From Colwellia sp. TT2012 (GTDB taxonomy: Bacteria; Pseudomonadota; Gammaproteobacteria; Enterobacterales; Alteromonadaceae): 64,000 nucleotides of DNA. This document shows, one piece after another, positions 5,647 through 25,033 of the stretch. The stretch is from contig NZ_LJYX01000011.1 of the NCBI RefSeq assembly GCF_001440345.1, positions 62,001 through 126,000 on the forward strand, read 5' to 3'. The translations under genes were made by a program, and so were the position numbers. A model generated the notes under the pieces. That model saw only the letters and a program-made list of their open reading frames with translations, was not told the origin of the DNA and did no database searches. Numbering within the stretch: position 1 is the first letter of the stretch; each line of letters starts with the position of its first letter.

Positions 5647-5656
5647 CTAATCTTGC

Positions 5657-5682
5657 AATGGTAATGCAGTTGCATTACCATT
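5657..5682. promoter_or_regulatory. Perfect 26-bp palindrome, probable TA operator
   Basis: AATGGTAATGCA and TGCATTACCATT are perfect 12-bp arms with a 2-bp spacer. The site lies 32 bp before the antitoxin ATG and lacks a following T-run, so it fits an autoregulatory antitoxin operator better than a terminator. This is inference from position and symmetry. Confidence 0.55.
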
Positions 5683-5713
5683 ACTTTGTAAACCTAATAA
5701 CTTGGAGGTTACT

Positions 5714-6043
5714 ATGATACATGCAACTTTAGAAACAGAATCCACATTAACCGATCGATTCCAAACAACCGTACCAAGTGTTGTTCGTCAAGCACTACAT
5801 TTGAAGAAAAAAGATAAAATAAAATTTATCATTCAGCCAAATGGTAGCGTCATACTTTCTCGTGTTGAACCCAAAGAAAGTGATCCTGTTGTTGAATCGT
5901 TTTTAGCTTTTGTTGCTAATGATATGCAAAGACATCCTAAAAAGCTTCAGTCACTTACCGCAAGTATGCGTGATCGTATTGAAGTATTAACCTCTGGTAT
6001 TGAATTAGATTTAGATGCCCCATTATCCGATGAGGATGAATGA
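5714..6043 (+). CDS. prlF: PrlF/SohA-type antitoxin
   Basis: The ATG at 5714 is chosen because GGAGG sits at 5704-5708. The 109-residue product has an N-terminal AbrB/SpoVT-like swapped-hairpin fold (TLTDRFQTTVPSVVRQALHL, then IIQPNGSVILSRV) and an acidic C-terminal tail ending in DEDE. That is the layout of PrlF, which binds DNA through the AbrB-like part and neutralises YhaV. Its stop overlaps the toxin start by 4 nt (ATGA), indicating translational coupling. Confidence 0.88.
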   Translation: MIHATLETESTLTDRFQTTVPSVVRQALHLKKKDKIKFIIQPNGSVILSRVEPKESDPVVESFLAFVANDMQRHPKKLQSLTASMRDRIEVLTSGIELDLDAPLSDEDE

Positions 6044-6522
6044 TTTTGTCTGATAATGTCGCTATTGTCGTCAATGGGTGGACGTTATATACGCACCCAT
6101 TATTTGTTGAGCAATATGAGATTTTAGAGAAAAAGGTCGTAGCGCTTAAGGCAAAAGATCCAAGAGGTTATATTAAAAAGAACGCTACAAAAAGGCTAGC
6201 AGCTATTCATAAGCTAGCTTTTGAAGTGATTCCACAAGATCCAACAAAATCGGATTATCGCCAAGGTAAAACATTAGGCGAAAACAATAAACACTGGTTC
6301 AGAGCTAAGTTCTTTCAACAGTACCGATTGTTTTTTCGATACGATATCCAATCAAAAGTAATTGTCTACGCTTGGGTAAATGATGATAGCAGCAAACGAG
6401 CTTATGAAAGTAAAACAGATGCTTATAAAGTATTTGCGAAAATGCTGAAATCAGGCAACCCACCAGATAGCTGGGAAGATCTATTAAAAGCCGTCAAAAA
6501 AGAAAAATCCTCCAATAAATGA
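6040..6522 (+). CDS. yhaV: YhaV-type ribonuclease toxin
   Basis: 160 aa, near the 154-residue length of E. coli YhaV. It begins with the family signature VNGWTLYTHPLFVEQYE. The RelE-like core follows with KRLAAIHKLAF, IPQDPTKSDYRQG, HWFRAKFFQQYRLFFRY and VIVYAWVNDDSSKRAY. Known family members are ribosome-associated mRNA interferases. No truncation is seen, so the pair looks functional. It is wedged between RHS scraps in an accessory region. Confidence 0.92.
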   Translation: MILSDNVAIVVNGWTLYTHPLFVEQYEILEKKVVALKAKDPRGYIKKNATKRLAAIHKLAFEVIPQDPTKSDYRQGKTLGENNKHWFRAKFFQQYRLFFRYDIQSKVIVYAWVNDDSSKRAYESKTDAYKVFAKMLKSGNPPDSWEDLLKAVKKEKSSNK

Positions 6523-7003
6523 TTTTAGGGAGTTATTACCACTAAGGAATAGTGGATCATAAAACCAATTACTGTATATGCAGGTACGATAGTATGATCC
6601 AGTACCCGTACATTTCTTCTTTTTAAAAACCTTAAAAACCAGATATAAATAGCACCATCTAACGTCTTCTTGGTGAGCTTACTTGACGTTAGCGCTTGTT
6701 TCTCTAACGGCAGCTCTTCCGACGAAGCAGATGAGATATTAGTGGAATATACCGACAACCTATCAATAATTAGAAGACTGTGTTGCTGGAAATGAAATCC
6801 AATCGGTTGTTAATTTTTCACAAAAATTCAACTATTTTTGAATGGTAAGTTAAATTAAAATCAACATTAATACTCATTATTTAACTAAAAAACATGCTAA
6901 ATTTTTCTATTCGTTTTCTATACGGTAAGAAAATAGAAAACCAATAAGACTTCTTTTCAGTCAATTTCATAATATCTCCTTATCAATTTAATAAGGAGCT
7001 ATT
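6523..7003. other. Intergenic debris with a second RHS scrap
   Basis: At 6575-6600 the sequence TATATGCAGGTACGATAGTA nearly repeats 4640-4659 and would encode the RHS signature YMQVR-stop-YDPV, with an in-frame stop. At 6659-6693 CTAACGTC and GACGTTAG form a short inverted repeat related to the cassette-leader element further downstream. The rest is AT-rich leader for the FGE-like gene. No supported gene on either strand. Confidence 0.55.
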
Positions 7004-8581
7004 ATGAAAAAAATCATCACCACTTTAGTTATAGGGTTCACTACAAATCTATGGGCAAATTCGCTGCCAATAGAACCCGTGTTAGTGCCAATAGTAGAAG
7101 CAACAAAAAACATAAATATTCAAATGGGTAAGTACGAAGTTACTGTTGAAGAGTTTACTCGTTTTGTTAACGCCACAGATTATAAAATGTCAGGTAAATG
7201 TTATTTATATAACGCTAAACATGTACCTGCTGACGGTACCGGTACAGCGAATGATAAAGACTTAACAGCAAATCCTTTTCGGCCTATTGTCTGTATTGGT
7301 CCGTATGGTGCCATGGATTATGCAAGTTGGTTAGCAAAAACCACAGGAAAACCCTATAGATTACCCGAAAAAAATGAATGGCTGTATGCCTCATCCGAAG
7401 GTAAATCAAGTCGCTTTGCTTTTGGCGACGATTTTAACTACAGCGAAATGTGCGACTATGAAAATATTGAAGATGCAGCGAATAGTGCGGGATTAAAACA
7501 ACATCATAATTACAGAAATAGAATCAGTGCTAACTGTAATGATGGCGCTATCTATCACACTGTTGTGGGTATGTATCGTCCAAATAATTTTGGTTTACAT
7601 GACATGATGGGTAACGTGAGGGAGTTTCTGCAAACTTGTCATGTATTTAATAAGGCGGAGCCTAAACAATGTCAGGAGTATGTATTAGCAGGGAGTGGTT
7701 GGCATTGGATGCCAAGACCTACCGATGTATTCGACAGTATGGGTGGTAACTTTGTTGGCAGCATTGAAGGCTTTCGTGTAGTACTTGATAGTTCGACAAA
7801 ACATTCTCAATCGGTACAAACTCAAACCTTTGTTAATAACCTAGTGGTAGCCCAACAGCACGAAAAACACAAGCATGATAGGTTAAAATCTTTACCGACC
7901 AGACCACCCGGATTATATGCAAAACTGGGAAATAAAAATCAAGTGAGCCTCAGTTGGTTACCTAGCACTGGTGAAAGCGTGAGTTATTCTTTGTATCGTA
8001 GCTATCTAGATCCTAGTGCAAAAATAAGCCGAAAAATGACGAAAATAGCCGAAGGCATTAAGATGCTCTACTATGTTGATAATTTACCGAGCGGTAGTGC
8101 GGCAAGTTATCAAGTATTTGCAGACAATGAGATAGGACAAAGTCAGGCAAGTAATGAAGTGAGTATTGGAAAATATCCAGTGTTTCATGTTGATGAACGA
8201 ATTCAAGCGGAGTTTTATAACCAATATCGCAATACTAAAATATTTGAGAAAGAGCAACAACAAAGTGTTCTTTTTGATGGTAATGCCGGCGATAACATGC
8301 AAAATCAACGGCCATTTGTTCCATCATGGTTAAAGTATAAATTTAACAGTGAAAAGGCAGGCCAAGCGATGCTAAAAATGAACATTCGAGGGCAAAAAGG
8401 GGCTATTATTGAGTTTTGGCAAGGTAATCATTTAGTGGCTAAAACAGCGATTGAGGGCGGTGAAAATTATGCTGAGCAAAGCATTCCTGCTCAATTGATG
8501 GCAGGAGATGACCCGATACAAATTCGTGCCGCCAACAAACTATATTTTATACTTGATTGGTTTGAACTGCGTTACCAATAA
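7004..8581 (+). CDS. Secreted FGE/SUMF1-like protein with fibronectin-type domain
   Basis: 525 aa with a signal peptide (cleavage near LWANS, residue 19). Residues ~35-270 resemble the formylglycine-generating-enzyme fold: MGKYEVTVEEFTRFVNAT, a DYASWLAKTTGKPYRLPEKNEW block, NNFGLHDMMGNVREFL, and the terminal EGFRVV. The typical GNVWEW is changed to GNVREF, and the paired catalytic cysteines before the final GFR are not evident, so it is probably a binding or structural member, not an oxidase. Residues ~300-390 look like a fibronectin III domain (SLSWLPS...YSLYRSYLDP). The C-terminal 120 residues resemble a beta-sandwich. It converges on a CadC-like regulator. Confidence 0.72.
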   Translation: MKKIITTLVIGFTTNLWANSLPIEPVLVPIVEATKNINIQMGKYEVTVEEFTRFVNATDYKMSGKCYLYNAKHVPADGTGTANDKDLTANPFRPIVCIGPYGAMDYASWLAKTTGKPYRLPEKNEWLYASSEGKSSRFAFGDDFNYSEMCDYENIEDAANSAGLKQHHNYRNRISANCNDGAIYHTVVGMYRPNNFGLHDMMGNVREFLQTCHVFNKAEPKQCQEYVLAGSGWHWMPRPTDVFDSMGGNFVGSIEGFRVVLDSSTKHSQSVQTQTFVNNLVVAQQHEKHKHDRLKSLPTRPPGLYAKLGNKNQVSLSWLPSTGESVSYSLYRSYLDPSAKISRKMTKIAEGIKMLYYVDNLPSGSAASYQVFADNEIGQSQASNEVSIGKYPVFHVDERIQAEFYNQYRNTKIFEKEQQQSVLFDGNAGDNMQNQRPFVPSWLKYKFNSEKAGQAMLKMNIRGQKGAIIEFWQGNHLVAKTAIEGGENYAEQSIPAQLMAGDDPIQIRAANKLYFILDWFELRYQ

Positions 8582-8592
8582 GCTAAAGGTAT

Positions 8593-8629
8593 AACGGCGC
8601 TAGGCTAAGACTTCAATTACCTAGCGTTT
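8593..8629. terminator. Weak hairpin between convergent genes
   Basis: CGCTAGG and CCTAGCG arms (flanked by AAC and GTT) separated by 15 nt, with only a short T-run. It lies between the converging stops at 8581 and 8651. Confidence 0.4.
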
Positions 8630-8650
8630 GTTAAGTAATGACTAACACTG

Positions 8651-10477
8651 CTATTCTTTATCCATTTTTTTCATCTGCTCATTCAGCCACGCTTTCAAAG
8701 CATTGCGTTCTAAATAGTCCATATACTCTGCTTGTATTTTTGGGGCATGGCTATTTAGCTGATATAGCCCAAAAGCTGCATGGACAGCCATATGAGTATT
8801 GTGCTCTAGCCGCGCTAATTCAAAGGCTTTTAAAAAATACGTGCGTGCTTCATTTTTGTTATCCGTGGCATGATGTAACTTGGCTGTTAACACCAGAGAT
8901 GCTGGAGATTCAGGTCTGCTTTGCAAAAGCGACCTAGCTAAGTCGAAATCTTTTTGCACTATGTATTGCTCGATGAGTAACTCAGTTGAATGCTCGATAA
9001 CCCAGGTATTATGAATTGTTCTAGGTAAAAGTAATATTTTCTCCAAATAAGGTAATGCCTTACTGTTATCTTTGGTGAATATCACGAAGTGATAATAGAC
9101 GACAGCGAAATTAGATTCATTTAGCTTATGTTTCAGTAACAGAGCTTGTGCTTCATTTAGGTGAGCATATTTTTTGTGTCCGTCACCGGCTTTTTTAGCC
9201 AGTATTGAATAGGTAATATGTAACTCGAACAAACTTAGCGCGTTAACGTGTTTCTGACTAAACTCAAGACCTTGCTCTAGTATTTCAAACATTTTTTCAA
9301 AATCGTGTAGCTCTTGAGCTACCCACGCTCTTGCACTTATGTTTTCATATTTCAAAGCCCACAATGGTGTATCAGCTAATATAGATGATACTTTCTTTAA
9401 ACTATTCGAGGCTAGTTTATATTTTCGATGCACTTTATAAATATCACTCATTAGTCGCTGAGCCTTAGCTCGATAAGGACTAAAACCATAGGACTCGTCT
9501 GCATTAGCTAGCTTTTGTGCATAAGTCATTGCCACTTCCAGCTGTTTTACCTCAAAATAATGATTTGCTAACCGGAATAGTAAATCCGGATCATTGGGTG
9601 AGGTTTCCATCATCGATGTCATTGTGCTGATATTTAACTTAATATTTGGCTTGGTAAATAAACCGAGTTGATCTAGCTCGATTAAGCGTTCTGACAATTT
9701 TTGAGTAACTTGTTCATGAGTTTTTCCAAATACATAACCACGCCAATAAGCGTCGCCATTTGATACCCCATAATTTAAGAAAACTCCGTTTGAAGAAGCG
9801 AAGTTTTCTGTCCATAACAACCACTCACTATCCGGAATATTCGATAACTTCCATGTTAGTTTAGGGGTATGAAAAGATTGTCTGGATGAATGATTGACAG
9901 TGGTATATTTGACCTCAAACCTGTTATCTTTGAGGATGCTTTTCTTAATTAAATCAGTAAAGTTTGCTGAATTTTGAGAGTTTTCTTTGGTATTATGTAC
10001 AAGGTGTAATATTACTTGTTCTTTTAGTGTAAATGTTTGAAAAAGGTAAACAACTATTGCTAAAAAAACAGCTAAAAAGTAAATAAGCCAGTGCGACTTT
10101 ACCAACGAGCGAGAGGCTTTATCAGCCTTAATTATATTTGGTTGTACGTCTACAGTTGAAACATTCTGTAATGGTATCTCCCACTTATAACCTTTTTTAG
10201 AAAAAGTCTTAATAGCATCAGAGCCCAAAATGGCTCTAAGTTGGCTGATGGTTTGAAAAACAACTTGTTCAGAGACAATTTTATCCTGCCAAACAGCGTC
10301 CATAATTACATCTTTGCTGTGAATACCATCAGGATTAGTGATGAAGAAATCTAATAATAGTGCTTGGTTACGTTTCAGCGGAATAATTTCTTCATGTTTA
10401 TAAAGGATGAGTTGATCGCGTAAGAAACGGTATTCTGAAAATTTAACGTCCATATAATTATTGCTTAAGGAATTCAT
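8651..10477 (-). CDS. CadC/ToxR-like winged-helix membrane regulator with TPR-like C-terminus
   Basis: 608 aa. Residues ~10-105 form an OmpR/PhoB-type winged helix (LKRNQALLLDFFITNPDG, VSEQVVFQTISQLRAILG, IKTFSKKGYKWEIPL). A single transmembrane helix follows at ~130-150 (WLIYFLAVFLAIVVYLFQTF). About 450 helical residues then repeat in TPR-like fashion (ANHYFEVKQLEVAMTYAQKL, AKLHHATDNKNEARTYFLKA). This is the CadC-like one-component design: a cytoplasmic DNA-binding head and a periplasmic sensor. The signal is unknown. The likely target is a neighbouring gene such as the FGE-like protein, by proximity only. Confidence 0.85.
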   Translation of the reverse strand: MNSLSNNYMDVKFSEYRFLRDQLILYKHEEIIPLKRNQALLLDFFITNPDGIHSKDVIMDAVWQDKIVSEQVVFQTISQLRAILGSDAIKTFSKKGYKWEIPLQNVSTVDVQPNIIKADKASRSLVKSHWLIYFLAVFLAIVVYLFQTFTLKEQVILHLVHNTKENSQNSANFTDLIKKSILKDNRFEVKYTTVNHSSRQSFHTPKLTWKLSNIPDSEWLLWTENFASSNGVFLNYGVSNGDAYWRGYVFGKTHEQVTQKLSERLIELDQLGLFTKPNIKLNISTMTSMMETSPNDPDLLFRLANHYFEVKQLEVAMTYAQKLANADESYGFSPYRAKAQRLMSDIYKVHRKYKLASNSLKKVSSILADTPLWALKYENISARAWVAQELHDFEKMFEILEQGLEFSQKHVNALSLFELHITYSILAKKAGDGHKKYAHLNEAQALLLKHKLNESNFAVVYYHFVIFTKDNSKALPYLEKILLLPRTIHNTWVIEHSTELLIEQYIVQKDFDLARSLLQSRPESPASLVLTAKLHHATDNKNEARTYFLKAFELARLEHNTHMAVHAAFGLYQLNSHAPKIQAEYMDYLERNALKAWLNEQMKKMDKE

Positions 10478-11027: not shown

Positions 11028-11127
11028 ATATAACAAGCTGTTTAATAAGGACAAAATACAGTTGGCTGTGTTTCGTTCCTCAACATGCTAACCAACAATA
11101 TTTTGCCCATTAACGAGGGCGTTAGGC
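11028..11127 (+). repeat. attC site 1
   Basis: ATATAAC (left core) to GTTAGGC (right core, a good GTTRRRY). Between them AAGGACAAAATACAGTTGG pairs with CCAACAATATTTTGCCC, giving the long imperfect stem typical of attC recombination hairpins. It begins 5 bp after the lipoprotein stop. Confidence 0.85.
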
Positions 11128-11286
11128 GTCACTTATATTTCGGAATCATTTGATTTATCTTATGTTTTTATCACTTTTCTATGTTTTTGTCTTTAAATTA
11201 TGAATTTAATCCCCAGTATAATTAATGGGCACCTGTAATCTACATGTTATCAGGGTTTAATAATCACAATTAAAATGAGAATACAT

Positions 11287-11574
11287 ATGACAAAAGAACA
11301 AGTAATAACTCAATGGTTAACAGATAATACAGATCTATCTTGGACACGAACTGGTGGCGACACGCCAGCAGTAAAATTAGATCGACTGTACATCAATCGA
11401 AGTGAAGCGTATGAGATCAGAGACTTTATTTTAAAGTATTACAAGGAATGTAATTTGGAACATAAATCAGATAATTATAAAATAACGCTTAAGAAAATCA
11501 TGTCGTATAAGTCAGGTGATAGAGTGAAAACTCAAGACATGCTTGATCACCTTACAAGCAAATTAAACGCATAA
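11287..11574 (+). CDS. Cassette gene, hypothetical protein
   Basis: 95 aa from the ATG at 11287 (MTKEQVITQWLTDNTD). A second ATG 12 nt upstream is possible. The composition is charged and soluble with no signal or TM. The predicted layout is a short helix, a strand-like stretch (AVKLDRLYINRSEA), then helices (IRDFILKYYKECNLE). It ends 10 bp before attC site 2. I do not recognise it, and no function is proposed. Confidence 0.7.
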   Translation: MTKEQVITQWLTDNTDLSWTRTGGDTPAVKLDRLYINRSEAYEIRDFILKYYKECNLEHKSDNYKITLKKIMSYKSGDRVKTQDMLDHLTSKLNA

Positions 11575-11584
11575 TTTAGCAGCA

Positions 11585-11640
11585 ACCTAACAAAAACCTC
11601 AATCAGACGGCTTTTACTGTCGCTTAGGTTGGCGTTAGAC
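11585..11640 (+). repeat. attC site 2 (short, 56 bp)
   Basis: ACCTAAC (RYYYAAC) at 11585-11591 and GTTAGAC at 11634-11640. Arms CTAACAAAAACCT and AGGTTGGCGTTAG pair with a small central bulge. The size and layout match a classical 59-base element. Confidence 0.88.
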
Positions 11641-11661
11641 AGTATAAAGGATCTTAATTAC

Positions 11662-12282
11662 ATGAATTATCATGACTCTCATAAAAACCATATTTTTGAT
11701 AAGATTGATGCCGTTAAATCAGCAATTTTTGAAAAACTACTACCTGTATATAATGATATTGAAACAGAAGCAGAATCAGTTTCGAAGGAAAAATATAAGG
11801 AGTTAGGCAAAAAATTTAACCCTGAGACTATGGATGAAAGTAGTGCTGCTGAAAAAGCATGGGAAGAAGGAGGTAAATATTATGAACTGCAACATGCTAT
11901 GAAAGCTGAATTTTTACTAAGTACAGCCACATGGCTTTTTCATCTTTTTGAGAAAGATTGCAGAGAAATGTGTTCGAGATTGTATAACAAACATGATGAG
12001 CTTAAAATAAAACTTGAAGAAATGGGCATTAATTGTGATGATAACTCTGATTGGTATAAAACAAATACTGAACTCCGTTTAGTCGCCAATACCATTAAAC
12101 ATGGAGAAGGTAGCTCATCTAGAAAACTTCAACTAATTAAACCAGAATATTTTGACACAAAATCATCATACTTGACAGATAGTAAAATTGAAATTACAGA
12201 TCAAGATATCCAACTTTATATCGAATATATGAAATCATTTTGGATTTCTTTTTTTGATAAAGTATTACGAAAATCAACATAA
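11662..12282 (+). CDS. Cassette gene, helical HEPN-like hypothetical protein
   Basis: 206 aa from the ATG at 11662, with AAGGA at 11646. An upstream in-frame TTG lies inside attC site 2 and is not used. The protein is almost entirely helical and charged. It contains TELRLVANTIKHGEGSSSR, reminiscent of the helix with conserved Asn/His-Gly seen in HEPN-type proteins, which often act as RNases or toxins. That likeness is pattern-level only. The stop abuts attC site 3 directly, confirming a one-gene cassette. Confidence 0.72.
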   Translation: MNYHDSHKNHIFDKIDAVKSAIFEKLLPVYNDIETEAESVSKEKYKELGKKFNPETMDESSAAEKAWEEGGKYYELQHAMKAEFLLSTATWLFHLFEKDCREMCSRLYNKHDELKIKLEEMGINCDDNSDWYKTNTELRLVANTIKHGEGSSSRKLQLIKPEYFDTKSSYLTDSKIEITDQDIQLYIEYMKSFWISFFDKVLRKST

Positions 12283-12368
12283 GTCTAACAAATAAAATGC
12301 ACCGGGAAGACAAAGCTACAGTCGTGCCTCCTTCCGCTTTGTCTTCCCGGTGATTTTGGCCGTTAGCT
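12283..12368 (+). repeat. attC site 3
   Basis: A perfect RYYYAAC core (GTCTAAC, 12283-12289) and GTTAGCT at 12362-12368. CACCGGGAAGACAAAGC (12300-12316) is a perfect inverted repeat of 12336-12352, a 17-bp stem. It begins one base after the preceding stop codon. Confidence 0.88.
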
Positions 12369-12705
12369 GCCGAATAAATTATGGATATAGCATCATACAT
12401 AGAAGATGGATTCGGTTTATCTGAATCAACTCTTATTTCAGATAAATTTATCGTTGAAAATGACGATTTGATGTGGATTAAGTTCGAGTGCATATTCTCA
12501 TGCATCGCGATCACCTAATACCCTCTAAGCCGATCACCTAATACTATCCATCGCGATCACCCAATACCATCGATGCCGATCACTTTTCGTCAAAAGGGTA
12601 TTGAGTGATCGGCTTGAATAGTATCGTTCTATTTTTGTACTTTTTTGTCTAGCCAGTAGGTGTTTTTAACCGTTATTCTTTTCATTTTTGATGATGAGAA
12701 TAACC

Positions 12706-14234
12706 ATGCCAACGGCAACTATTTCAATGCGTAAACTTAAAGAGATTTTAAGACTAAAATACGACTGTAAACTCAGTCATCGAAAGATAGCAAATAGCTT
12801 ATCAATTTCACCGTCAATTGTGTCTAAATATGCCTGTAAATCAGCAGAGCTAGGGATCACTTGCTGGCCGCTTGATACAAAGTGGGATGATCACTCCCTG
12901 CAACAAGCGTTCTTCAAAACAAAGCCTAGATTAAAAGGTTTTTCGATCCCTGACTGGTCATTAGTTCAGCAGGAGCTGCGGCCCAAAACGATGACGCTAT
13001 TACTGCTTTGGCAAGAATACAAAGAGCGACACGAGGAGGGTTTTTACAGTTATACCCACTTCTGCCGCCAGTACAAAGCATGGCTTAAATGTCAAAAACC
13101 TTCCATGCGCCAAAATCATAAAGCAGGTGAAAAACTGTTTGTCGATTACTGTGGGCCAACCATGAATATTGTTGATGCCAGTACCGGTGAATACCGCACG
13201 GCACAGGTATTTGTCGCCGTTATGGGGGCCTTGAGGCTACCTATAGTCAAAAGCTCGAAGATTGGGTGATGAGTCACGCCCGTTGTTTTGAGTTTCTGGG
13301 TGGTGTGCCTGAGCTGGTTATTCCTGATAACCTTAAAAGTGCGGTAACAAAACCCTGTCGGTATGAGCCTGACTTAAATCCAACCTACCAGCAATTGGCG
13401 ACACATTACAATACCGTCATTGTTCCTGCTAGACCCTATAAGCCCAAGGATAAAGCCAAAGCAGAGGTAGGTGTGCAAATTGTCGAACGCTGGATCATGG
13501 CACGGCTTCGCAATGAAAGCTTCTTTAGCTTGCGCCAACTAAACTTAAAAATACAAGAATTATTGGTCGATTTAAACCAGCGGCAAATGAAAAAGCATCC
13601 TGGTTCAAGGCTCAGTCAGTTTGAAGCTATCGACAAACCAGCGTTAAAACCGTTGCCTGCACAAGCTTACAGCTACACCTTAGTCAAACAAGTTAGCGTG
13701 CATATTGATTACCATGTTGAAGTTGAAAAACACTATTATTCCGTGCCGTATACCTTGATCAAACAAAAGCTTGAAGCCCACGCCACCGGACAATTGGTGA
13801 CACTTTACCATCAAGGCGTTCAAGTCGCTGTTCACCCAAGATCCCACCGACAAGGTGCTCACACCACACTTGATCTACATATGCCAGTCGCTCATCAAAA
13901 GCAACAGCAATGGACACCACAACGTTTTGAACGTTGGGCAAGTAAATTCGGACCATCAACAGAGCAGTTCGTTATGCAATTGATGCAAGCTAAAAAGCAT
14001 CCAGAGCAAAGCTACCGCGCTTGTATGGGGTTATTAAGTTTAGGTAAGAAGTTTACCGACCAACGACTAGAAGCAGCCTGTTATCGCGCCTTAGCCACAG
14101 GCGTAACGCGGGTAAAACAAGTGAAAACTATCTTAGAAAAAGGCTTAGATAAACAAGACTTGCCTGAAGAGCAAGGTAACTTACTGAAAGATATTGACCA
14201 TGAAAATATCCGCGGCAACCACTATTACCATTAA
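12706..14234 (+). pseudogene. istA: IS21 transposase IstA, frameshifted by internal deletion
   Basis: The first part (MPTATISMRKLKEILRLKYD) holds the helix-turn-helix and the first catalytic Asp in KLFVDYCGPT. The frame runs to [11 protein letters not shown] and then ends at 13269. The second part resumes in another frame at [20 protein letters not shown] and continues with the second Asp region ([11 protein letters not shown]) and the Glu helix ([12 protein letters not shown]) to 14234. IstA proteins usually read GAS-N-Y-T-x-A before EAT. Here only two bases remain between GCC and GAG, so about 16 bp appear deleted near 13230. The DDE triad is thus split across frames and the transposase should be dead. 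Confidence 0.85.
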
Positions 14235-21687: not shown

Positions 21688-21825
21688 ATGCTTTATCGCG
21701 GTTTATTTATCGCTTGGCTGATAGTATTGAGTGCTGTTTTTGTAACGTTTAAGAGGCCGGTGGGTCACGATTACAGCAAGGTAATCTTTGCAGGTTTAGG
21801 CTTTCTAAGGGGGGATGAACAATGA
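21688..21825 (+). CDS. Possible 45-aa single-TM small protein
   Basis: The ATG at 21688 opens MLYRGLFIAWLIVLSAVFVT, a clean N-terminal transmembrane segment, then a short basic/acidic tail ending GDEQ. The RBS is weak (AAGAGA). Its 3' half overlaps the opposite-strand ORF at 21749, so at most one of the two is likely real. Confidence 0.3.
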   Translation: MLYRGLFIAWLIVLSAVFVTFKRPVGHDYSKVIFAGLGFLRGDEQ

Positions 21826-22027
21826 GTAGGCTAGGTTTGTCAAACCTTTTTATAGTAAGGTGACTGCATAAAAGCGCACTAGGCTCATGATTATCTTCTA
21901 ACTCAAGTTGGCCATAATAGCCGTTGCTTACGTTAGTTTCTGCTAAGCAGGGCTGAGCTAAGCTTGTACTTAAAAAGCAAAAGCATAATAAAAAACACAA
22001 TAAGGCATAGGGCTTATTGAAGGTCAT
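21749..22027 (-). CDS. Small putative exported protein, hypothetical
   Basis: 92 aa from the inner Met (MTFNKPYALLCFLLCFCFLSTSLAQP), which makes a plausible signal peptide. The frame extends to an ATG at 22051. The mature ~65 residues are not recognised and end in a Pro/Cys-rich tail. It is divergent from the DUF4266 operon. Support is the signal peptide only. Confidence 0.4.
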   Translation of the reverse strand: MTFNKPYALLCFLLCFCFLSTSLAQPCLAETNVSNGYYGQLELEDNHEPSALLCSHLTIKRFDKPSLLIVHPPLESLNLQRLPCCNRDPPAS

Positions 22028-22328
22028 TTTTTTATCATTAATTAACACCATGGCGGCGCATTATATACGCAAGTTTACTCTAAGGAAACGTTAATTTACT
22101 GCTCTAAGTGAATAAGACAAGCACGCTGAGGCAGGGCCACATAGTTAAGTGTTTTCCCATTAAGCCGAGTAAAACTAGCTTAATAAAAGCCGATGGCGAG
22201 ATTAAATATCGCCATAGTGTTTTGTTTTAAGGTAAAATAACCCCTATGGAAATTGGATTTAACCTTGATTAAGCCATCATCAGTCACTCTGTCGAACAAG
22301 GTTAATATCAAGACAATTAAAGGCAATA

Positions 22329-22607
22329 ATGAAAGCGATACAATCCACCGTTAAAAAATCACTGCAATTACACCAGCATAAATTAACCGCTAAATTTAAG
22401 CTTGTTTTGTTCGTTGTTGTTCTTAGTAACCTTAGTGCTTGCAGTAGTTTGGGAGTAGAGCCGTGGCAGAGGGATTTATTGGCGAAAAAATCAATGGCGC
22501 TAACATCCAGCTCTATTGATGCTGCTTTGGACGATCATATTTATTTTTCCAAAGAAGCCTCTAGCGGAGGCAAGAGTTTTGGCGGTGGCGGCTGTGGCTG
22601 CAATTAA
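22329..22607 (+). CDS. DUF4266-family lipoprotein
   Basis: 92 aa. A basic N-terminus and hydrophobic stretch lead to the lipobox LSACSS at ~37-42. The conserved block EPWQRDLLAKKSMAL and the Gly-rich, two-Cys C-terminus ending GGGGCGCN fit DUF4266. The family is typically encoded next to DUF3570 and ApbE genes, as here. The CGC tail suggests metal binding or a modification site, which is inference. Spacing to the next gene is 32 bp. Confidence 0.85.
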   Translation: MKAIQSTVKKSLQLHQHKLTAKFKLVLFVVVLSNLSACSSLGVEPWQRDLLAKKSMALTSSSIDAALDDHIYFSKEASSGGKSFGGGGCGCN

Positions 22608-22639
22608 TTTTAGACAATAAGCACTAAGTATAATAATCG

Positions 22640-24010
22640 ATGAGTTATCCAGACAATAAAAACACTAAACAACATAACCAGTATAAAAAAACCAATCTCA
22701 AAACCGCTTTATCTATGGCGGCGGGCGCTTTATTAGGTACTGGCGCTATAGTGCATGAGGCAAAAGCTGAAGTGTTAAAAGATTGGCAATTTGATAGCGC
22801 CTTTTTATATTATTCCGAAGCCGAGCGGGTAACCGCGGCTGAGATCATTGTCAGCGGCAACAAAACCTTTGCCAATGATGAAGTATTAAATGTAAAGCTG
22901 ACTATCGATTCCTTAACCGGCGCTTCTGCTAATGGCGCTGTGGTGCAAGCTCAGGCGCAAACCTTTACCCGCCCCTCAGGTGAGGGCCAATATGTTACTC
23001 CCGCAGGTGATAACCCCCTTGATGACACCTTCAAAGATACTCGAGTGCAGTTAAACGCCCAGTGGACACAACCGCTAGCTGAAAACTATACCGCCAGTAT
23101 TGGTGGCCATTTATCGAAAGAGTTTGATTATTTATCCCTGGGTATTAATGGTAATTTAGCGCTGGATTTTTATAAGAAAAACTCAACAATTTCATTAGGT
23201 TTGAGTCATTTTCAAGATAGATTTACCCCTATTGGTGGCATACCTAAACCTTATGCCGCTATGCTTATTGGTGATAGCAATGCACCTAGTTGGCATGAAG
23301 ATTTTGCGGCAACGCGAATAGCCAGTGGCGATAATAAGATCACCACTGATGTCTTAGTGGGTTTTACCCAAGTTATTAATCGCCGGATGATCACCCAGTT
23401 TAATTACTCCTATTCTATGGTGCGGGGTTATTTAACCGATCCCTTTAAAATTGTCAGTGTGTTGAACCAAGCGGGCACGGCCCAAGATTATATTTATGAA
23501 CACCGGCCGGATGAGCGCAAAAAGCAAAGTATCTTTGCGCAAACTAAATACCATTTTGACCAAAGCCTGTTGAATAGTGTGCTGGATGTTTCTTATCGTT
23601 ATATGTGGGATGACTGGCAAATTAAATCGCACACCCTAGATAGCACTTTGCATATGCCTCTTGCTAGTCGCTTTGGTAAAGAAAGCTATCTACAGCCACA
23701 TATTCGCTATTATCAACAAAGTGCCGCTGAATTTTATCGCCCCTATACTTTTGTGGAGCAAACAAGTAATTGCTCATCAGAAGAAAACTTTATCAGCGCC
23801 GATTACCGCATAGGGGAAATGACCGCGGTAACGCTTGGGCTGAAATATGGTTTCAGTCTCAATAACGGTAACAATTTTTCCGTAAGGTTAGAATATTATC
23901 GACAAATGCCAAGCAATGCTGGTTTTGACCAACCTAGCGAGCTGGCTAACTTAACTGTCTATCCCGTGGTGCAAGCCGTTATATTCCAGTTAAGTTATTC
24001 GTTCTTATAA
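22640..24010 (+). CDS. DUF3570-family outer-membrane beta-barrel protein
   Basis: 456 aa. An N-terminal export signal (LKTALSMAAGALLGTGAIVHEAKA) precedes EVLKDWQFDSAFLYYSEAERV, the usual DUF3570 start. The remainder alternates aromatic/polar strands (YTASIGGHLSKEFDYLSLGI, FNYSYSMVRGYLTDPF) and ends with an aromatic-rich terminal strand (AVIFQLSYSFL), as expected for a BAM substrate. Role unknown. It is the second gene of the DUF4266-DUF3570-ApbE unit. Confidence 0.85.
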   Translation: MSYPDNKNTKQHNQYKKTNLKTALSMAAGALLGTGAIVHEAKAEVLKDWQFDSAFLYYSEAERVTAAEIIVSGNKTFANDEVLNVKLTIDSLTGASANGAVVQAQAQTFTRPSGEGQYVTPAGDNPLDDTFKDTRVQLNAQWTQPLAENYTASIGGHLSKEFDYLSLGINGNLALDFYKKNSTISLGLSHFQDRFTPIGGIPKPYAAMLIGDSNAPSWHEDFAATRIASGDNKITTDVLVGFTQVINRRMITQFNYSYSMVRGYLTDPFKIVSVLNQAGTAQDYIYEHRPDERKKQSIFAQTKYHFDQSLLNSVLDVSYRYMWDDWQIKSHTLDSTLHMPLASRFGKESYLQPHIRYYQQSAAEFYRPYTFVEQTSNCSSEENFISADYRIGEMTAVTLGLKYGFSLNNGNNFSVRLEYYRQMPSNAGFDQPSELANLTVYPVVQAVIFQLSYSFL

Positions 24011-24169
24011 TTGCTAACATGGAAAGTACTATTGAAGTTACTATGGCAGTTGATATGACAGTGAATATTAAATTTTATCCTGATAATAACCTTAAAGAAC
24101 AAAGCTATTAATAAAGTACGTTACAACAGCCAGCGCACCCTGGCGGTCAAAGCTCAAGAGCAAGGCTAT

Positions 24170-25033
24170 GTGATATCTTTTTACGCAATGGCCAGCCCTT
24201 GTGAAGTACTGATCCAAACAAAGGATCATCGCTTGGCTAAACGCGTCGCCAGCGCGGTCAGTGATGAGGTTTGGCGTATTGAAGATAAATTTAGTCGTTA
24301 TAATAAACACAGTGTTTGTTACCAAATTAATAACAGTGCCGGACAGAGCATTGCCATCGATGAAGAATGCTACCTATTATTAAATTTTGCTGAGCAGTGT
24401 TATCAGCTCAGTGATGGTTTGTTTGATATTAGCGCCGGTATTCTAAATCAAGTGTGGCACTTTGATGGCAGTGATAAAATCGCCACAAAAAAGCAAGTTG
24501 CCGCTGTTTTACCTTTAGTTGGCTGGCATAAAGTTAGCTATCAGAAAAATAGCATTACCTTGCCCCAAGGTATGGCTCTTGATTTTGGTGGTATTGGTAA
24601 AGAATATGCGGTGGACCGCGGTATTTTATTAAGCAAGCAAATAACCGCTCTGCCGGTTCTGGTGAACCTCGGAGGCGATTTGGCGGTCACGGGTCCCAGA
24701 TTAAACGATTTACCCTGGCAAGTTGCCATCGAGTCAACGGAGCACACTAAGCCAAACAGTGATAATAACAAAGAAATAATAGTGGCCTTAACTCACGGCG
24801 CCTTAGCAACAAGCGGTGATAGTAAGCGCTTTCTCGTTAAAGATGGCCAGCGATATAGCCATGTGCTTAACGCGTTAACAGGTTGGCCCATCGAGCAGGC
24901 GCCAAGATCAATTACCACGTTAGCACCGCAATGTATTCAAGCGGGCATGTTAGCTACCCTAGCCTTGCTGCAAGGAGAGGGCGCAGAGCAGTTTTTGTCT
25001 GAGCAAGAGGTTACTTATTGGGCACGAAGATAG
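24170..25033 (+). CDS. apbE: FAD:protein FMN transferase (ApbE family)
   Basis: 287 aa from a GTG. The family start AMASPCEVLI is followed by EDKFSRYN, LSDGLFDISAG, LDFGGIGKEYAVDR (flavin/Mg site), VNLGGDL, ATSGDSKRF and YSHVLNALTGWPI. ApbE covalently attaches FMN to Thr/Ser of target proteins. No signal peptide or lipobox is visible, unlike many periplasmic ApbEs. The frame is open about 40 codons upstream (KVRYNSQRTLAVKAQEQGY) without an ATG, so the start is uncertain. It lies 160 bp after DUF3570. Confidence 0.9.
   Translation: MISFYAMASPCEVLIQTKDHRLAKRVASAVSDEVWRIEDKFSRYNKHSVCYQINNSAGQSIAIDEECYLLLNFAEQCYQLSDGLFDISAGILNQVWHFDGSDKIATKKQVAAVLPLVGWHKVSYQKNSITLPQGMALDFGGIGKEYAVDRGILLSKQITALPVLVNLGGDLAVTGPRLNDLPWQVAIESTEHTKPNSDNNKEIIVALTHGALATSGDSKRFLVKDGQRYSHVLNALTGWPIEQAPRSITTLAPQCIQAGMLATLALLQGEGAEQFLSEQEVTYWARR

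Follow-up and report, generated by a model that had tools for sequence, protein, structure and literature searches.

A DUF3570 flavinylation cluster without thioredoxin in Colwellia sp. TT2012: probable cytosolic FMN loading of Ser96 in a predicted outer-membrane barrel with a putative CxC relay

Described DUF3570 Systems and the Colwellia Locus

Proteins of the ApbE family attach flavin mononucleotide (FMN) to the last residue of the motif D-x-x-[ST]-G-A-[ST] (PMC12052999). The closest described relative of the locus presented here is the DsbD/DUF3570 system (Meheust et al. 2021, PMC8238504). According to that report the DUF3570 protein of Chlorobium luteolum is flavinylated by its cognate ApbE, and the modification is lost only if both predicted [ST]GA[ST] sites are changed. 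A DUF4266 protein with a carboxyl-terminal CxC is reported for 221 of 285 DsbD clusters, together with the suggestion of possible redox cycling of the CxC. A thioredoxin-like gene and DsbD are usual for DUF3570 clusters but not defining. No other paper was found in a literature search on DUF4266, DUF3570 and PF12094/PF14086, and in the Pfam copy used neither domain has an assigned function as yet. In the main text of PMC8238504 the words “barrel” and “propeller” are absent and “outer membrane” occurs once, on siderophore transporters.

We analyzed a stretch of 64,000 nucleotides of Colwellia sp. TT2012 (GCF_001440345.1, NZ_LJYX01000011.1, positions 62,001–126,000), hereafter the window, in which the genes of DUF4266, DUF3570 and ApbE follow each other in this order on the + strand (Table 1). 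The cluster is of a known kind, the DUF3570-type flavinylation cluster engaged in electron transfer: it shares with the system of PMC8238504, as described there, ApbE, a DUF3570 protein with [ST]GA[ST] and DUF4266 with a carboxyl-terminal CxC. It differs from it in that DUF3570 has one site instead of the two conserved motifs of the published set, the thioredoxin-like gene is a relic, the cluster is without DsbD (no match within 8 kb) and ApbE is leaderless. The cluster has neither of the two usual companions. We consider it probable that the cluster operates without its thioredoxin, with FMN loaded on Ser96 of DUF3570 in the cytosol, DUF3570 forming an outer-membrane barrel and the CxC of DUF4266 acting as a relay. 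New with respect to the published system are the barrel model with the placement of Ser96, the general leaderlessness of the linked ApbEs and their clade, the thioredoxin relic and the difference in the ApbE start.

Predicted Flavinylation Site of DUF3570

The first-pass annotation of the window recognized DUF4266, DUF3570 and ApbE as co-encoded, which the profile matches bear out (Table 1), but saw no clear flavinylation site in the neighbours of ApbE. The latter is wrong, as residues 90–96 of DUF3570 read D-S-L-T-G-A-S. With this site present in a published target family, the idea of a flavinylation unit stands, and the unit is a dedicated one, while its assignment to an unknown envelope system does not. 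The motif is the only one in the 47 non-overlapping window open reading frames (ORFs) of at least 100 residues (18,022 residues). It occurs four times, once in NqrB, in 945 other distinct ORFs that are 200 or more residues long (389,769 residues in total), and in 64 of 20,000 shuffled versions of the DUF3570 protein.

The loci surveyed were found with the window's own DUF3570 type and belong mostly to Colwellia and near relatives. D90 and S96 are invariant in all 49 aligned DUF3570 proteins of the window type (window included). The site reads D-x-L-[ST]-G-A-S in 45 of them, has G-[ST]-S for G-A-S in three and is X-masked between D and S in one. Among 100 distinct DUF3570 proteins with an ApbE gene within 1.3 kb, which are mostly from Colwellia or near and therefore not independent, 94 carry [DEQ]xx[ST]GA[STA], four DxxTG[ST]S, one is X-masked and one has SSAS; the last is from Hymenobacter and goes with an exported ApbE. 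The match between motif and neighbouring ApbE is imperfect across loci. Where ApbE lies 1.3–7 kb off (six cases) the motif is found in four and SNAS in two, and five further DUF3570 genes are at locus edges. The 21 distinct DUF3570 proteins with no ApbE within 7 kb have S[SN]AS (14) or [ST]GA[ST] (seven, three from the C-type clusters described below and four of the window type). In locus L248 (3266–6004) DUF3570 belongs to a 912-residue frame with an extra carboxyl-terminal part, which adjoins the genome's one detected ApbE.

ApbE without an Export Signal

The window ApbE matches solved ApbE structures and keeps the RYSH stretch, whose histidine we take to be the general base. The earlier remark that it has no export signal holds for the complete open frame from stop to stop (24065–25033). 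Ahead of the GTG start this frame has a hydrophobic run, ILNFILIITL, which is preceded neither by a usual start codon nor by a charged stretch. Its score is 1.72 in our leader test, in which the Kyte-Doolittle values upstream of the domain are averaged over 12 residues and the maximum is taken, with a mechanical start codon and a cut-off of 2.2. A wrong ORF start masking a leader was considered and finds no support in the stop-to-stop frame.

The absence of a leader is general. A leader-like segment was detected in one of 98 distinct ApbEs coded within 1.2 kb of DUF3570, as opposed to 28 of 32 controls, which comprise L009, L246 and the top ApbE match from each of 30 genome loci. The passing DUF3570-adjacent protein (L146) has the segment in a long ORF extension, and L048 comes near the cut-off at 2.12. 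None of the six ApbEs located farther off in the same locus (four L008-type, L125, L127) passes, while the far-linked ApbEs of L243 and L244 do. Three of the four controls that do not pass (L234, L246, L220) score 1.97 to 2.05 and the fourth, L230, was mis-scored by the script. In a midpoint-rooted tree of 54 chosen ApbEs, the 39 DUF3570-linked proteins of the window and L008 types stand apart, with a split support of 0.977, from the 15 others, which are controls and far-linked proteins including those of L125 and L127. In each of the whole genomes G141 and G267 a single ApbE was detected, which adjoins DUF3570 and has no leader. Genome G041 was tried as a further one-ApbE case and is of no help, its ApbE being on another contig than DUF3570, which lies near a contig end. 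In a Vibrio locus (L251) the start of a leaderless ApbE overlaps the DUF3570 stop. Note that the adjacent ApbE of Hymenobacter has a signal sequence, so that leaderlessness marks one sub-line of the DUF3570 system and not all of it.

Leaderless DUF3570-linked ApbEs run counter to the general picture of ApbE as a periplasmic enzyme and would be unusual if cytosolic. They appear in no title or abstract opening among the literature matches listed, with subscription papers, figures and supplements outside that scope. The ApbE of the Klebsiella fumarate reductase, as presented in PMC12052999, has no signal peptide either; its target is a soluble fumarate reductase, unlike the exported DUF3570 of the window.

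DUF3570 as a Predicted Outer-Membrane Barrel

An AlphaFold run on 49 sequences gave a DUF3570 model with a mean predicted local distance difference test value of 84.3 and a predicted template modelling (TM) score of 0.81, residues 1–45 being of low confidence. The model has 16 strands of at least 10 residues, shorter ones being left out of the count, and the loops average 20.0 residues after odd strands and 4.7 after even ones. An even strand number, long loops on one side and an aromatic residue near the carboxyl terminus (YSFL) are all present, and DUF3570 is predicted to be a 16-strand outer-membrane beta-barrel. Foldseek matched the model best to outer-membrane barrels, namely OmpG, FadL and further porins, with E-values of about 1e-9 to 1e-7, although the TM-scores on the query are only 0.21 to 0.47. 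VIA-align 2 placed a BamA model at the top (Z 22.0, root mean square deviation (rmsd) 5.2, 312 aligned residues), followed by two polysaccharide exporters (Z 19.9, rmsd 4.1, 264–268 aligned) and FhaC (Z 17.9, rmsd 3.2, 250 aligned), then BcsC, CymA and OmpG. A search by sequence found no solved relative at E-values up to 1. The shared barrel fold shows no function.

The loop lengths suggest that both ends of DUF3570 are periplasmic. Strand 3 is then predicted to run outward, with Ser96 at the point where it enters the long loop 95–131. In the model this loop would be on the presumed outer side of the membrane or folded into the barrel lumen.

The DUF4266 Tail and the Thioredoxin Relic

DUF4266 is a small lipoprotein whose CxC tail is conserved: in the proteins of relatives and of the second cluster of the genome it ends with CGCN in 39 of 41 cases and with CGCK in the other two. 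The mechanical DUF3570 start overlaps the DUF4266 end by 1–29 bases for 75 of 129 distinct DUF3570 genes. In L040 (6155–6172) the last Cys-Asn-stop codons of DUF4266 double as ATG CAA TTA (M-Q-L). Such overlaps, here and in other loci, point to translational coupling; the two genes do not overlap in the window.

The usual order in Colwellia is thioredoxin-like, DUF4266, DUF3570 and ApbE, often with kinase/regulator-type genes (matching a protein of the L008 cluster) 3' of ApbE. A thioredoxin-like gene precedes DUF4266 in most relatives. Neither it nor the kinase/regulator genes gave a match in the window, in C. marinimaniae (L056), in C. piezophila (L057) or in two loci of metagenome-assembled genomes (L058, L059). 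Upstream of DUF4266 the window keeps a relic of the thioredoxin-like gene with an in-frame stop (Table 1). It is detected by tblastn with 55% identity over 42 residues and 40 bits, the best of 200 dinucleotide shuffles reaching 26.6 bits. Among 26 DUF4266 loci with no thioredoxin match, a similar relic (E up to 1e-3) was found in eight, from five distinct genomes, and not in the other 18. An L008-type cluster accompanies the window type in four of seven Colwellia genomes lacking the thioredoxin gene and in none of 14 having it, as judged by eye; these 21 genomes lack independence, and neither the thioredoxin gene nor an L008-type cluster is present in G003, G023 and G024. Compensation of the lost thioredoxin by the second cluster is suggestive only.

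The relic and the missing two-component genes downstream could also mean that the locus is decaying in the TT2012 lineage and that ApbE is expressed little or not at all in this strain. The start codon used by the nearest relative is missing from ApbE, and the ratio of nonsynonymous to synonymous substitution rates (dN/dS) for DUF3570 against the closest strain, 0.226, is above that of CitMHS (0.063) and Band7 (0.015). DUF4266, at 0.212, is likewise less constrained than these two neighbours in that comparison. Against decay, all three frames are open, the motif and the CxC tail are kept, and the same reduced cluster is found in C. marinimaniae and C. piezophila. The dN/dS values of the cluster genes are 0.09–0.25 against L133, L134 and L136 and 0.07–0.10 in the comparison with L212, which has a high dS; for L137 and L138 the dS is saturated. 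DUF4266, DUF3570 and ApbE are under purifying selection, and we regard decay as improbable.

The Other ApbE Proteins of the Genome

Profile matches reveal three ApbEs, two DUF3570 and two DUF4266 proteins in the genome. One ApbE has an LSAC lipobox and is coded directly 3' of nqrA-F (names read from the ORFs), where NqrB and NqrC carry the sites DGFSGAT and DALSGAT. The first-pass annotation gave as an alternative that ApbE in this strain modifies only NqrB/NqrC. The two Nqr sites provide targets for such a role, but the lipobox ApbE lies immediately 3' of nqrF and belongs to a different ApbE clade from the window protein, and we give this explanation hardly any credence.

The exported Nqr-linked ApbE might instead flavinylate DUF3570 in the periplasm, the leaderless ApbE having another target or role. 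Periplasmic service of the barrel is possible in principle, since the DUF3570 clusters of the C-type and of Hymenobacter go with exported ApbEs, and four DUF3570 proteins of the window type have the motif in the absence of any ApbE up to 7 kb away. The leaderless ApbE is, however, tightly linked to DUF3570 and forms its own clade, and no other ApbE was detected in G141 and G267. On balance, periplasmic modification appears rather unlikely.

Proposed Route of Flavinylation and Electron Transfer

In the route that we favour, Ser96 of DUF3570 would receive its FMN from the leaderless ApbE in the cytosol, either ahead of export through Sec or in the course of it. ApbE can act on an unfolded chain because the seven-residue motif alone suffices (PMC12052999, as stated there), and a modification that precedes export agrees with the leaderless ApbE as well as with the position of the site, early in the mature chain. 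Export by Tat, carrying ApbE along, was considered and is unlikely, a twin arginine being present in the first 35 residues of two of 100 DUF3570 proteins. Once exported, the flavinylated chain would form its 16-strand barrel in the outer membrane, and the flavin would lie in the lumen or at the mouth that faces outward. The CxC tail of DUF4266 would probably pass electrons from periplasmic thiols (thioredoxin or DsbD) to the flavin, from which they may go to an acceptor outside the cell. With the local thioredoxin gone, a different periplasmic thiol protein would have to supply the electrons, such as the one coded in the second cluster. The wider proposal, that the whole leaderless clade loads FMN in the cytosol and that the flavinylated chains cross Sec and are folded by the beta-barrel assembly machinery (BAM) into a haem-free electron port, is put forward tentatively.

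Several observations weigh against this route. Cytosolic flavinylation before export would be the simplest reading, but it is unproven and the missing leader is its single basis; the leader test is an in-house hydrophobicity cut-off, not SignalP. In C. marinimaniae MTCD1, the nearest named relative (94% identity in DUF3570), ApbE begins with an ATG whose counterpart in TT2012 is AAG (24095–24097). In the absence of this ATG the TT2012 protein must start at GTG 24170, which makes it 25 residues shorter, or at an unusual codon. The ApbEs of L125 and L127 have no leader by the test, yet they group with exported ApbEs in the tree. Four DUF3570 proteins of the window type (L179, L180, L185, L194) retain the motif although no ApbE lies within 7 kb, and the Nqr-linked ApbE could act in the periplasm. 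The loss of the local thioredoxin removes the usual electron donor gene. Finally, a cytosolic ApbE failed to replace a periplasmic one in the thiamine-growth test reported in PMC12052999.

If DUF3570 is a barrel with its flavin at the outer face, electrons would have a way through the outer membrane that needs no haem. The combination of a leaderless ApbE and an exported target also makes it possible to test cleanly for the export of flavinylated chains.

Second Cluster and Related Loci

The second cluster of the genome (L008, Table 1) lies on another contig than the window and resembles the window type in its thioredoxin-like, DUF4266, DUF3570 and leaderless ApbE genes. It differs in having a three-site DUF3570, two lipoproteins with D-x-x-T-G-A-S and its own thioredoxin and DsbD. 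These large lipoproteins (5655–8711 and 11120–13102) keep the motif in four of four clusters (L008, L064, L065, L071), and the second one shows weak propeller matches below the cut-off. The two lipoproteins are possible new substrates of ApbE; alternatively, the motif may represent no more than an ordinary turn of a propeller.

Table 1. Features of the window cluster and of the second cluster of the genome.
Feature	Position	Strand	Evidence or content
Thioredoxin-like gene relic, about 42 codons of carboxyl-terminal part, in-frame stop	22129–22251	+	tblastn
DUF4266 lipoprotein, 92 residues	22329–22607	+	PF14086, 7e-21
DUF4266 lipobox L35-S-A-C38 (LSAC)	within 22329–22607	+	
DUF4266 carboxyl-terminal tail GGGGCGCN with C-x-C, ending CGCN	22581–22604	+	
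DUF3570, 456 residues, signal sequence then predicted barrel	22640–24010	+	PF12094, 2.8e-146
Predicted flavinylation site D90-S-L-T-G-A-S96	22907–22927	+	exact D-x-x-T-G-A-S motif
Ser96, expected FMN attachment residue	22925–22927	+	last residue of motif
ApbE, flavin adenine dinucleotide (FAD):protein FMN transferase, no export signal, GTG start	24170–25033	+	PF02424, 1.8e-60
Second cluster	L008 5655–16334, contig C1		lipoprotein, thioredoxin-like, DUF4266, DUF3570, lipoprotein, DsbD, leaderless ApbE, hybrid histidine kinase
Second DUF3570	L008 9693–11012		three sites DSISGAS, DSITGAS, DAFTGAS within about 30 residues

The C-type clusters of Colwellia and relatives (e.g., L243) share the thioredoxin-like, DUF4266 and DUF3570 genes. 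Their DUF3570 usually reads D-x-x-S-S-A-S, and an exported ApbE lies about 11 kb off in L243 and L244. They were considered as an ApbE-free, flavin-free control, which was dropped: 13 of the 23 genomes assigned to this type by eye have an ApbE on the contig of the cluster, 10.8–17.4 kb off, the start being read in L243, L244 and L246. The L246 protein, with a leader score of 2.03, looks exported by eye. The C-type genomes G282 and G401 have an ApbE about 6 kb off with no leader by the test (L127, L125). In L243 (109–15645) the DUF3570 with DSISSAS stands beside other barrel-like proteins and a CxxCH-motif protein, and further genes of this locus are presumably cytochrome-like and DUF1501-like, as judged by eye.

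The Hymenobacter clusters (L249, L250) have the thioredoxin-like, DUF4266 and DUF3570 genes as elsewhere, but differ in the clear signal sequence of the adjacent ApbE and in the D-x-Y-S-S-A-S of DUF3570. Judging from these sequences, the motif variant of DUF3570 and the location of ApbE may go together. Both loci are on plasmids (L250 4272–6887, L249 4248–6894), and a gene is split into two frames in each, DUF3570 in L250 and ApbE in L249.

Next to the window cluster, a small ORF with a signal-like start (21749–22051, − strand) is 98% identical in C. marinimaniae and 44–68% in other Colwellia loci, and is probably a real gene of unknown function.

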